Shown: positions 2,613-57,993 of the stretch, piece after piece
Layout of the letters: each line of letters starts with the position of its first letter
Position numbering within the stretch: position 1 is the stretch's first letter
Source of the DNA: Saprospiraceae bacterium
GTDB lineage: Bacteria > Bacteroidota > Bacteroidia > Chitinophagales > Saprospiraceae
DNA: 57,993 bases
Assembly: GCA_027008645.1 (NCBI GenBank)
Contig: JALVEE010000324.1
Coordinates: 1 to 57,993, forward strand
Direction: 5' to 3'
Translations under genes and position numbers: made by a program
Notes under the pieces: model-generated
What the model saw: the letters and a program-made list of their open reading frames with translations, nothing else
What the model was told of the DNA's origin: nothing
The model's database searches: none

Positions 2613-5600
2613 ATGAAAAAATCGATTATCTTATTTTTAACACTAATGTATATCTCTCAAATCAATGCTCAAGATAGTTATTTAGTAGGCTTTCAAAAAG
2701 AAGTGTCGGGGGATAATTTTACTTATCATTCACCTTTTTCAAACTCAGCTCCATGCCTTTTGTCAAGAGCAAACAGGCATTTTGCTCCTATAGTTTGGGA
2801 AACCCAAGTTATACCGGTGGATTACCACAAAAAAGATATTTCTCTTGTTTGGCTATACGGAATAGATGTTACACCGACACCCCAAACGTTTGACATATAC
2901 GTCAATGATTTGAAGATAGGTAGTTTTCAAAATCCCGTGACAAGTGATGTTGAACCCCTGACGATGAAAGGGAATTATGGTGCTAAATTAACTTTTTATA
3001 CCACTACGATTGACCGGTATAAAGACCGTATGGGCTTTGCTGTATTGACCATACCTGCAAAAAACATCAAGCCGGGAAAATCAATACAAATAAAAGTTGA
3101 TGCGGTCAACAATGATAGCCCCATTTGGTATATGACATTTAAAGTTCCACTAAAGGAAAAAATTGAAGTGAATCAACTTAATGTTGTTTCCAAGAGCAAT
3201 GATAAATTGTTTCACACGGTTAGATTTGAAATAATTCACTTGGGAAAGCCCGCCACTTCTTTGATAAGCCTTGCCGGACAGCAAAAGGAAATAAAGCTGA
3301 TACCCGGACAAAATATAGTGGATTTTACGTTAAGAGCAGTAACAAAACCAACGGAATATACGGCTGAAGTCAAAAAAGGAGACCAGCCGGTATCATACCA
3401 TAAATTTTGGATAAAACCGGTAAAAAAGTGGACGGTTCATATGGTTCAGCATACTCACACTGATATTGGATATACCCGTTCCCAAGCTGAAATTTTGCCT
3501 GAACATTTACGCTTTATCGATTATGCCCTTGATTATTGTGACCAAACTGATGATTATCCCGATGATGCCAAATTCCGTTGGACATGTGAAGCCGCCTGGA
3601 CAGTAAGAGAATACTTAAAGGGAAGACCAAAATCACAAATCAATCGATTGTTGAAACGCATTAAAGAAGGTAGAATTGAAGTGACAGGTATGTTATTTAA
3701 CTATTCAGAGATATTGGATGAAACATCATTGGCAATGCAATCACAAGCTATCAGTTCATTTAAAAAGCATGGTATTGAGGTACAAACCGCAATGCAAGAT
3801 GATGTTAACGGTATCGGTTGGTGCATGCCTGATTTTTTTCATGATACGGGAGTGAAATATCTGACCATGGGACAGCACGGGCACAGAGCACAAATCCCAT
3901 TTGATATGCCTACTTCTTTTTGGTGGGAATCTCCCTCCGGAAAGCGATTGTTAGCTTATAGAACAGAACACTATATGCATGGAAATACTCTAAGACTTAC
4001 AACGGGAAATATAGATGAATTCCGTACTAATCTATCCGACTATTTGAAGGGCTTGGAAGAAAAAAAATATCCCTTTGATCATATTTCATTTCAGTTTTCA
4101 GGATATATTACAGACAATTCTCCTCCCTCTACTATTGCCTGCGATATCGTAAAAGAATGGAATGAAAAATACGAATGGCCAAAACTCAGACTTTCACTTG
4201 ACAGTGATTTTATGAGTTATATGGAGGAAAATGAAGCATCAAACTTACCTGTCAAAAGAGTAGCTTGGCCTGATTGGTGGACAGATGGCTTTGGTTCGGC
4301 GATGAATGAGACAAAAGCCTCAAGAGCTGTACATGCCGAGATGATTAACAATATGGGTTTATTCTCAATGGCGCGGATGTTGGGAGCAAAGATTCCTGCT
4401 CAAATCAATAAAGATATTTATGATTGTTATGATAATCTTTTGTTTTATGGTGAACATACTTTTGGAGCAGACGAAAGCATTACGAATCCTTTGTCCGAAA
4501 ATGTTATTAAGCAGTGGGGACAAAAATCGTCTTATGTTTGGTCTGCTGTAAAGCAATCGAGTATTTTAAAGGAAAAAGCACTGGGTTATTTGCAACCGTT
4601 TATTAAGAAATCAAGTGTGCCTACGATAGTCGTTTTTAATACACTTAACTGGCAACGCTCCGGCTTGGTTGAGGTATATATAGATCATCAAATTCTCCCA
4701 TTGGATAAGGAGTTTGAAATAATTGATGAAAAAGGAAATGTCATTGATGCACAATTAAAAACAAGTAGAAATGATGGAAGTTATTGGATGTTATGGGTCG
4801 AAGATATACCGGCCATGGGCTATACCACACTTCGCATCGTAGTTGATAATTCAACGACAAGATCCATTACAACAGTACATTCTCTTCCCCAACTGGAAAA
4901 TGAATATTACAGCATAAACATAGATCGGCAAAAAGGTGCAATCAGTAGTATTTATGATAAGACTCTTCATCGAGAATTGGTGGACCAAAAAAGCAGTATT
5001 CAGCTCGGTGCTCTAATCTATGAAGAAGTTGATAACCGTCACGATTTGGAGCGTTTGACAAATGCAAATAGAGACACTGTATATGTACCCCTAAAAAAAC
5101 ATCTGCACTATATGAAAGATATACATATTTCCGGTGTGACGGAAGGGGAAATTTGGAATAGTGTTAAAATCAATGGAATGCTGGATAAATGTTCGGATCA
5201 AAGGGGGATTGAAATCGAAGTCAGGCTCTATAATAATGAGAAAAAAATAGAGCTTCTTTACCGTTTGTATAAATTGAAAGTCAATACTGCTGAAGGACTG
5301 TATGTGGCTTTTCCTTTCAATCCGGAATTTGGTCATCTGCTATATGAAGCACAAGGAGGAATAGTAAGACCCGGGTATAATCAGTTGGAAGGTACAGCCA
5401 CAGATTGGAACACTATACAAAGTTTTGCTGCTGTAAAAAACCAAAACGAGCAAATTGTATTCTGTAGCAAGAGTACTCCTTTGGTTCAATTTGGGGACAT
5501 CAATACAGGACATTTTTACTATAAGTACAAACCAAGACATCCACACATCTATTCGTGGGTATTGAATAATTATTGGGTAACCAATTTTAGAGCAAGCCAA

Positions 5601-6002: not shown

Positions 6003-6030
6003 TTAACGGCATGGTGGGTATATTCTTTTA

Positions 6031-6246
6031 TCATTTTATCGCATTTAATGTTATTTTCCTATTTGGATAGACCACCCCACTTATGAAATTAATCCTTTAT
6101 ATTTCTATATACTAACACCAATGTGCCCTTAGGTACAAAATATGGGTAAAAAAAGCTATTAACCAACTAAAATGCGTGCCGTAGGTACGCTGTATTAAAC
6201 ACATCAACAAAACTTCTTGTAAAAAAACGAAAAAATGAAATGCACC
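6031..6246. repeat. Dispersed non-coding repeat, copy 1 (two small hairpins)
   Basis: Bases from about 6041 to 6157 match 57876-57993 closely, with scattered substitutions and a one-base length difference. The shared part contains hairpin TGTGCC/GGTACA at 6122-6137, followed by AAATATGGGTAAAAA. Copy 1 continues into a second hairpin, GCGTGCC-GTA-GGTACGC (6174-6190). The right boundary is suggested by AAAAAATGAAATGCAC (6230-6245), the exact reverse complement of the 16 bases at 57859-57874 just left of copy 2. The arrangement resembles a REP/MITE-like element with inverted ends. No transposase was found in the window. Confidence 0.7.
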
Positions 6247-57124: not shown

Positions 57125-57820
57125 ATGAAAACATCAAAATCAATTTATTTAGCATTATTGGCAATATTATTTTCAACTAATATCATCGCTCAGCACAATA
57201 TCGGATTCAGAACCGGATTTAATCTAGCCACAATGAGAACAAGCATATCGGGAGATTTAGCTGAATATGCGGGAATGTCTCATGAAATATTTGGAACCGT
57301 AGGTTTGCTTTATAAAGCAAATTTGGACGAGAATTGGGCTATATCTACAGGTCTGAATTATGCCAGAAGAGGAGCACAAACTAAATTAAATCAGGATTTG
57401 GAGCTTTTTGACAAAACTTTTAATATTGGAGTGAAACTTGTGCATAAGATGGATTATCTCGAAGTCCCTGTTTTGTTTGAATACAGGATTAAAGACGCCA
57501 AATCGGTATCACCTTACCTGTTTGCAGGAGCTAATTTCGGATACGAATTGAATTATAACATGCATTTCAAATCACATATTATTATTGATATCAGCTTGTA
57601 CGAATATAATGTTGATTTGACAAACAATAGATTTAACCGGTTTGATATTGCCGGTGTGGTAGGTGCCGGAGTTTACGTTCCACTTGGTACGGGAAATCTG
57701 AATTTTGATATCAGATATCTACATGGATTTACAGATATTGTGAAAAACACAATTGTAGACTTGGGCTTGCAACATAGAAATGTCAGAATAGGCGCGGCAT
57801 ATTACTATCCTTTAAAATAG
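57125..57820 (+). CDS. Outer-membrane beta-barrel protein (PorT-like domain)
   Basis: This 231-residue protein has a signal peptide of about 22 residues (TNIIAQ). The mature part has about eight barrel strands of the kind in the outer-membrane protein beta-barrel/PorT family: IGFRTGFNLATM, FGTVGLLYKANLDENWAISTGLNYARRGAQ, MDYLEVPVLFEYRI, SPYLFAGANFGYEL, DIAGVVGAGVYVPLGTGNLNFDIRYLHGF, VRIGAAYYYPLK. Tandem LEVP and YLFAGANFGYEL segments are typical. The role is probably structural or receptor-like; it is not itself proof of PorT function in T9SS. Ended by a strong terminator. Confidence 0.85.
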   Translation: MKTSKSIYLALLAILFSTNIIAQHNIGFRTGFNLATMRTSISGDLAEYAGMSHEIFGTVGLLYKANLDENWAISTGLNYARRGAQTKLNQDLELFDKTFNIGVKLVHKMDYLEVPVLFEYRIKDAKSVSPYLFAGANFGYELNYNMHFKSHIIIDISLYEYNVDLTNNRFNRFDIAGVVGAGVYVPLGTGNLNFDIRYLHGFTDIVKNTIVDLGLQHRNVRIGAAYYYPLK

Positions 57821-57832
57821 ATACTGCTTGTG

Positions 57833-57876
57833 AAAAAATGAAATGCACCTTCTTTTAAGTGCATTTCATTTTTTAG
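57833..57876 (+). terminator. Strong terminator after the barrel gene, sharing an arm with the repeat
   Basis: A 16-base-pair perfect stem (AAAAAATGAAATGCAC, 57833-57848, with GTGCATTTCATTTTTT, 57859-57874) and a 10-base loop. The right arm is also the left boundary of the dispersed repeat copy 2. Confidence 0.88.
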
Positions 57877-57993
57877 CATTTAATGTTATTTTTTCTATTG
57901 GCATTGACCACCTCACTTATGAAATTAATCCGTTATACTTCTATACACTAACACCAATGTGCCTTTAGGCACAAAATATGGGTAAAAAGGTTA
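57859..57993. repeat. Dispersed non-coding repeat, copy 2 (runs off the window)
   Basis: Bases 57876-57993 match 6041-6157 closely, including ACTTATGAAATTAATCC, CTAACACCAATGTGCC and AAAATATGGGTAAAAA. The hairpin TGTGCC-ttta-GGCACA (57958-57973) is perfect here, while in copy 1 it has one G-T wobble. The element is cut by the window edge, so the second hairpin and right end seen in copy 1 are not visible. Confidence 0.7.

Follow-up and report, generated by a model that had tools for sequence, protein, structure and literature searches.

The dispersed repeat of the window (the whole of contig C324, G000:C324, 57,993 nucleotides, in a 4.09-Mb draft of 366 contigs, here called the own genome) is a non-autonomous DNA transposon (MITE), ordinary in kind, with terminal inverted repeats (TIRs) at its ends and two hairpins in its interior. 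By itself the MITE would be a common sort of parasite, albeit an abundant one, and the greater interest lies in its hairpins. Taken as a whole, our data make it probable that this TIR-transposon MITE carries the captured half of a REPIN-like hairpin unit associated with Y1 transposases. A wider reading, which we put forward tentatively and would stop short of calling probable, is that TnpA-Y1 enzymes with the Y..Q..HH signature (subclass 1.2) amplify an undescribed REP superfamily, and that the window element is a hybrid of a TIR transposon with half a REPIN-like unit. The superfamily so conceived has a 5-bp hairpin, 8 nt and a 3' GGTAG, its tag type is inherited with the enzyme clade, and besides Saprospiraceae it would extend to one or more further families of the order. 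The arrangement suggests that a single repeat combines two nested transposition systems.

The element is a MITE with 8-bp target duplications

The element is about 226 bp long, non-coding and bounded by 19-bp TIRs (GGTGYATTTCATTTTTTCG). Its ends were sharp in an alignment of 30 copies (A-GGTGYATTTCATTTTTTCG ... CGAAAAAATGAAATGCACC-T), and the modal length between TIR ends was 224 or 225. It is non-autonomous because it carries no gene; copy 1 showed no coding capacity, with no listed ORF of 80 aa or more between 6035 and 6388. The initial annotation had described two copies of a possibly mobile repeat in the window. Both copies are where it placed them, the extent of copy 1 being corrected to 6023-6246 (Table 1), and the mobility it proposed is borne out by the TIRs, the 8-bp target duplications and the many copies described below. 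The left TIR of copy 1 is degraded (8 mismatches in 19) and its right TIR is exact (0 mismatches), with no visible target duplication in its flanks. Copy 2 stops at the contig end, before hairpin 2 would be reached.

Table 1. Positions of the element copies and their parts in the window
Feature	Position	Strand	Description
Element copy 1 (MITE)	6023..6246	+	224 bp from TIR end to TIR end; aligned with 29 further copies
Hairpin 1	6123..6136	+	GTGCC-CTTA-GGTAC
Spacer (8 nt) and GGTA tag 3' of hairpin 1	6137..6148	+	next base A, giving GGTAA, not GGTAG
Hairpin 2	6174..6190	+	GCGTGCC-GTA-GGTACGC; without tag 3' of the stem
Right terminal inverted repeat of copy 1	6228..6246	+	CGAAAAAATGAAATGCACC
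Facing right-TIR-like and left-TIR sequences	57833..57876	+	shortly past ORF 57125-57820
Element copy 2, left part only	57858..57993	+	contig end falls inside the element
Hairpin 1 of copy 2	57959..57972	+	GTGCC-TTTA-GGCAC

With 40 of 262 first-look candidates scored, a search of the own genome with positions 6031-6246 returned at least 76 match rows, a degree of repetition beyond chance and many more than the two copies in the window. Forty of these rows exceeded 140 bp (E <= 1.4e-52, 82-100% identity), and copy 1 was 82-96% identical to the 39 further long matches. The pattern GGTGYATTTCATTTTTT, with at most one mismatch, occurred 148 + 159 times, and its reversed control never. Across 100 own-genome loci we distinguished 64 interior copies, 58 of which kept at least one TIR when up to 5 mismatches in 19 were accepted (both TIRs in 34, the left only in 4, the right only in 20, neither in 6). 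The six with neither include a TIR-less array (L325) as well as L329 and L330, which agree in their interior and could be a single locus lying at contig ends. At least five of the 30 interiors scored as without one or both TIRs have the other TIR farther off, with a second element inside.

Among the 34 copies with both TIRs, 8-bp target duplications were exact in 10 and present with at most one mismatch in 13, against means of 0.00 and 0.10 (maximum 2) when flanks were re-paired in 200 trials. Counts at lengths of 4-7 and 10-12 were not above those of shuffles, a single copy was found at length 9, and 21 of the 34 copies had no clear duplication. One copy (L002) sits inside a second one at CACTTATG; the other aligned copies are uninterrupted at this site. 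Together, the TIRs, the 8-bp target duplications and the nested copy are the hallmarks of transposition by a DDE-type enzyme.

The exact 19-mer TIR was present in 12 of 298 Saprospiraceae genomes and 5 of 112 genera. Across a named genome collection, 60 of 64 stretches with the TIR pattern, among the matches listed, were Saprospiraceae MAGs, so that the source of the window most likely belongs to this family as well. The other four were from Azoarcus, a Bacteroidales MAG, Riemerella and a Delongbacteria MAG, those of Azoarcus and Delongbacteria resembling coding sequence by eye, and the pattern was found in no viral contig. In Riemerella columbipharyngis (L094), the TIR core was exact at 4775 and had two mismatches at 2340, the two sharing nearly identical upstream sequence; no facing TIR partner was found there within three mismatches.

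The interior hairpins belong to a separate dispersed repeat family

The annotated pairing of hairpin 1 survives a G-T to G-C change, reading GTGCC/GGTAC in copy 1 and GTGCC/GGCAC in copy 2, and copy 1 does contain a second hairpin with the same GTGCC/GGTAC core. Folded as single-stranded DNA and compared with shuffles, hairpins 1 and 2 gave z scores of -3.5 and -2.5, respectively. An interior alignment was built from 40 of the 67 rows obtained by an interior pattern search of the own genome, whose output included wrong-strand duplicates and partial matches. Hairpin 1 changed on one side only in this alignment, one pair being G-C in 30 rows and G-U in 10, and hairpin 2 had a single pair with two-sided changes, in two rows.

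A covariance model of this interior (R1; 40 rows, 91 positions, 12 pairs) had at least 91 matches at E <= 0.1 in the own genome (150 of 2632 candidates scored). Under stricter filters and a ceiling of 29 scored candidates in each genome, R1 matched in 14 of 148 related genomes and 11 of 129 genera, including all 29 candidates scored in G082; 11 of the 14 positive genomes had no exact TIR copy. The form in relatives is a stem-loop followed after about 8 nt by GGTA(G), and inverted hairpin doublets were seen by eye in G082 and G090. Hairpin 1 of the element, with its 5-bp stem, 8 nt and GGTA, fits this form. The own genome also holds the TIR-less array mentioned above (L325, C121:80300-82000), in which TTGTCCC-GTTA-GGGACAA-AACATGGGTAAA units adjoin a dual hairpin with GTGCC; relative to the element, the GTCCC/GGGAC stems of these units are compensated and the 3' context is alike.

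The distance between hairpin and tag was exactly 8 in 82 of 98 hairpin-GGTA units from loci of 18 genomes, a count that kept only gaps of 7-9 beforehand. Two-sided changes affected four of five stem pairs in loop-4 units and five of five in loop-3 units, with covariation scores of 0.412 and 0.663 against 0.140 and 0.269 for shuffles and 0.026-0.142 when the partner was slid. The number of pair types did not stand out, since 133 and 127 of 500 shuffles reached it as well. The rows had been picked for a 5-bp stem, and some near-identical rows were left out, so that the paired percentage proves nothing and the evidence for covariation lies in compensated changes next to a fixed tag. In the covariance analysis that the initial annotation had suggested, changes among element copies are nearly all one-sided, and covariation is rich when other repeats and genera are compared. 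These data support the view that the element interior is a two-hairpin unit of a separate dispersed Saprospiraceae repeat family.

The hairpin family adjoins Y..Q..HH TnpA-Y1 genes

Y1_Tnp (PF01797) was detected in 69 of 100 related genomes. Two R1 matches flank a Y1 match in G023, at 102 and 15 bp, and one of three R1 matches in G028 lies 105 bp from a Y1 match. The Y..Q..HH signature, assigned by motif and not by the subclass survey's own models, was present in 68 of 104 Y1 loci (fragment loci L150 and L154 excluded). In the 99 of these 104 loci searched with R1 (494,116 bases; L293-L297 left out), all ten matches at E <= 0.01 lay within 360 nt of a Y1 match; by our estimate about a fifth of the searched bases are that near to one, many loci being only about 3 kb long. 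The ten matches fall in five loci (L242, L232, L222, L273 and L144), all of them Y..Q..HH. Eleven weaker matches (E 0.03-0.92) included two distant from the Y1 gene (L272, L276), and the class 2 (Y...NP) loci, of which 16 of 19 were searched, gave none at E <= 1.

The spacing was examined in an open scan of all 5-bp hairpins that precede GGTAG by 0-25 nt. In the 127 kb lying no more than about 1 kb from the 68 Y..Q..HH genes, 43 hairpins had a gap of 8, and every other gap gave 0-3; more than 3 kb from these genes, no hairpin had a gap of 8 in 137,241 bases. The control tag GATGG (GGTAG reversed) gave 0 at gap 8 and 11 at gap 17, so that its background is not flat. The tag was first noticed in L140, L144, L145, L222 and L242, which are therefore not independent; L223, L232, L239, L270 and L273 are GGTAG-8 loci examined afterwards. 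A looser unit definition with gaps of 5-11 (52 near, 11 far, 14 of 68 loci) was discarded, as it took in chance hairpins (L246, L267, L269).

The link between hairpins and Y1 genes might instead be indirect, both simply sharing permissive intergenic regions or the flanking repeats having arisen by local duplication. Such a link would fit the occurrence of the GGTAG-8 unit in only 10 of the 68 Y..Q..HH loci (it is absent from 58), and it would fit the flanking repeats of class 2 loci, where 11 of 17 share an exact repeat between flanks. We nevertheless regard it as unlikely. Of the 55 Y..Q..HH loci whose flanks were complete, 28 had an exact repeat of 16 nt or longer, by eye often a hairpin, on both sides of the gene, whereas only 1 of 51 control window pairs at least 3.5 kb away shared one; among unassigned Y1 loci the figure was 1 of 10. 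The spacing fixed at 8 nt also speaks against an indirect link, as does the way the tag follows the Y1 protein tree. In a tree of the 68 Y..Q..HH proteins, the ten GGTAG-8 loci belonged to two supported groups, making up 3 of 3 rows in one and 7 of 9 in the other, and the label required 4 changes against 9.5 when shuffled (0 of 500 as low), a test in which near relatives share labels and so favor a low count.

In the own genome, no Y1 gene cognate to the element's hairpins emerged. The Y..Q..HH Y1 gene found there (L140, clade A) is accompanied by GCC-type stems, unlike those of the element; the strongest R1 matches stood beside the genes of L242, L232 and L222, all of clade B, and the own genome yielded no gene of that clade. 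The element has GGTAA after hairpin 1 and no tag after hairpin 2, and the Y1 test used GGTAG. Position and spacing support the conclusion that the hairpin family adjoins Y..Q..HH TnpA-Y1 genes as REPs adjoin RAYT genes, and Y..Q..HH Y1 transposases thus appear to have REP-like repeats with a 3' GGTAG at 8 nt.

The course of events that we envisage combines these observations. A DDE-type transposase acting in trans would recognize the 19-20-bp TIRs and insert the MITE intergenically with an 8-bp duplication, as the anatomy of the copies supports. The interior would be a two-hairpin unit of a Saprospiraceae family that also exists without these TIRs, a step supported by its occurrence in the own genome and in others. 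Hairpins of this family (5-bp stem, 8 nt, GGTAG) would be the neighbors of Y..Q..HH TnpA-Y1 genes, as their position and spacing support. From this we infer that the Y1 enzyme acts on the hairpins: it would cut and spread hairpin units on single-stranded DNA, and one half of a unit may then have been captured by a TIR transposon and amplified along a second route.

Separately, two sets of Y1 loci drew attention. A congener (G001, L145, about 68-1640) carries some 17 GTCCC-ATWA-GGGAC units, each with 8 nt and GGTAG, on both sides of the Y1 gene, at about one unit per 50-56 nt. The Y..Q..HH genes of L250, L271, L227, L235 and L240 are flanked by long direct repeats that differ in sequence, several including hairpins, a hint that further tag classes exist.

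Host signals, IS remnants and the moving transposase

The hairpins could also be a host-selected RNA or DNA signal, such as a terminator, an mRNA stabilizer or a regulator, for which the copies are kept. All 59 testable copies lay outside ORFs of at least 150 aa, the figure for random points in the same loci being 941 of 2262, and this would agree with such a signal, although any tolerated insertion is expected to be intergenic. Private substitutions were fewer in the stems (4 of 720 letters) than in the arms and spacer (70 of 4212; Fisher p = 0.02), a weak hint of host use of the stems; the deficit is small and comes from 30 copies that were only the best BLAST matches. The facing TIR sequences at 57833-57876 jointly form a strong terminator-like hairpin of 16 bp (fold z = -8.4), which would likewise suit a host signal. 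Against this, none of 4227 Rfam models matched at gathering score in the window, and none at E <= 1 in 14 loci. We consider a host signal improbable as the reason for the copies. The selection on structure suspected in the initial annotation thus finds support in the covariation of the family, and within the element copies it is only suggested by the difference in private substitutions. As an observation on the ends themselves, the 57833-57876 hairpin after ORF 57125-57820 suggests that MITE ends may serve as terminators.

The element might also be an ordinary remnant of a known IS end, since a 19-bp TIR with an 8-bp duplication is IS-like. We think this decidedly improbable. Small units with the same ends recur at set sizes of 87-396 bp and not as decayed pieces of a longer one, and the three transposase families searched lacked these ends in the genomes searched. 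IS1595-type genes occurred in 2 of 12 TIR-bearing genomes and DDE_Tnp_1 genes in 4 of 7 genomes, none with the element's ends, and IS1-type genes in 0 of 12 TIR-bearing genomes. All three families were dropped as the source of the TIRs, no gene bearing AGGTGYATTTCATTTTTTCG ends. No autonomous element was recognized either. In the examined loci, no two facing TIRs at a distance of 0.6-3.5 kb had flanks that matched in 7 or more of 8 letters, and inspection by eye of the places listed in a further scan, from part of the genomes, yielded none. Multi-copy IS often drop out of short-read drafts, so this negative search does not show that the transposase is absent.

Movement of the element by a Y1 enzyme via its hairpins, in a RAYT-like manner with the TIRs incidental, is highly implausible: related hairpins do flank Y1 genes and a TIR-less array is present in the own genome, but target duplications are exactly 8 bp at the TIR ends, identical TIRs with 8-bp flanking repeats bound wholly different interiors, and Y1 enzymes of IS200/IS605 type are not known to make TIRs or leave a target duplication, which argues against such an enzyme as the mover of the TIR-bounded unit. 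The RAYT/IS200-type transposase anticipated earlier is accordingly found beside relatives of the hairpins, at Y..Q..HH Y1 genes, and not as the agent of a unit that is bounded by TIRs and target duplications.

Comparison with known systems

As a MITE with a REP-like interior, the element combines traits of two kinds of repeats. BrickBuilt (PMC4596501) is a MITE of Porphyromonas gingivalis with 19 copies in ATCC 33277 and a minisatellite interior. The two are alike in being short, non-coding, intergenic, TIR-bounded and multicopy, without a transposase remnant, in a Bacteroidota host. They differ in that the element has a constant 8-bp duplication, a REP-like hairpin pair as interior and at least 58 copies with a TIR, whereas the flanking duplications of BrickBuilt are variable; the TIRs of the element are also unlike the BrickBuilt and ISPg TIRs printed in that paper.

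The hairpin family resembles REPs and REPINs with RAYT/TnpA-REP (PMC3116915, PMC6006769, PMC3733652, PMC8266576) in consisting of short, dispersed, tagged hairpins beside a Y1 gene, and the inverted doublets of G082 and G090 add to the likeness. The way GGTAG-8 follows the protein tree here agrees with REPs and RAYTs, among which every enzyme clade has a repeat of its own. The tag geometry is different, with GGTA(G) 8 nt 3' of the stem in the hairpin family and GT[AG]G 0-2 nt 5' of the stem in REPs, and so are the enzymes, the neighboring Y1 genes being Y..Q..HH and RAYT/TnpA-REP being Y...NP (class 2). IS200/IS605 elements have at their right end a hairpin that is followed, at a constant 3' distance, by a short motif. 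The family hairpin with its tag resembles this end and, unlike it, is found as dispersed units without a gene.

According to the 2018 survey (PMC6006769), TnpA-Y1 subclass 1.2 has the Y..Q..HH signature, the motif YIKNQKEHH, a length of about 150 aa and a distribution in Bacteroidetes. The L137 Y1 protein has the same motif letters, YIKNQKEHH, as printed there, and the Y..Q..HH proteins of our data share the length and the host group. The survey table gives 'no' for REPs in subclass 1.2, in contrast to the flank-shared repeats of 28 of 55 loci in our data. We found no published account of the element, of its TIR or of subclass 1.2 REPs, a weak negative because most subscription papers lay outside the search. 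A Y1 subclass described without REPs thus seems to possess REPs whose tag geometry is different, and this offers a testable substrate for the enzyme group. On the reading favored here, the MITE has taken half of a REPIN-like hairpin unit to about 58 sites or more. Where two transposition systems are nested in this way, how often a REP-like sequence occurs does not necessarily reflect how active its own enzyme is.

Other elements with the same ends

Same-ended elements of 87-396 bp coexist with the window type, some with other interiors. Their flanks match in 8 of 8 letters in the own genus and in three other genera, in a list that required at least 6 of 8 matching flank letters and is therefore not independent evidence for the duplication. 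Elements of 88-89 bp with the same TIRs have a CTCCTAAAGGAG hairpin interior (L042, L053, L063, L111, L129, L305 and others), and forms of 103-119 bp add TTTATCCCTTTGGGA units, which suggests stepwise growth of the loop. A second inverted-repeat element of about 167 bp, with ends AGTGYCTGSTCGAAAACA..., lies inside five window-type elements of the own genome (L299, L164, L298, L175 and L305), seemingly at one internal insertion point. The composites have their own 8-bp target duplications, exact in four of the five and matching in 7 of 8 letters in the fifth, and the composite of about 391 bp seems to have multiplied as a unit.
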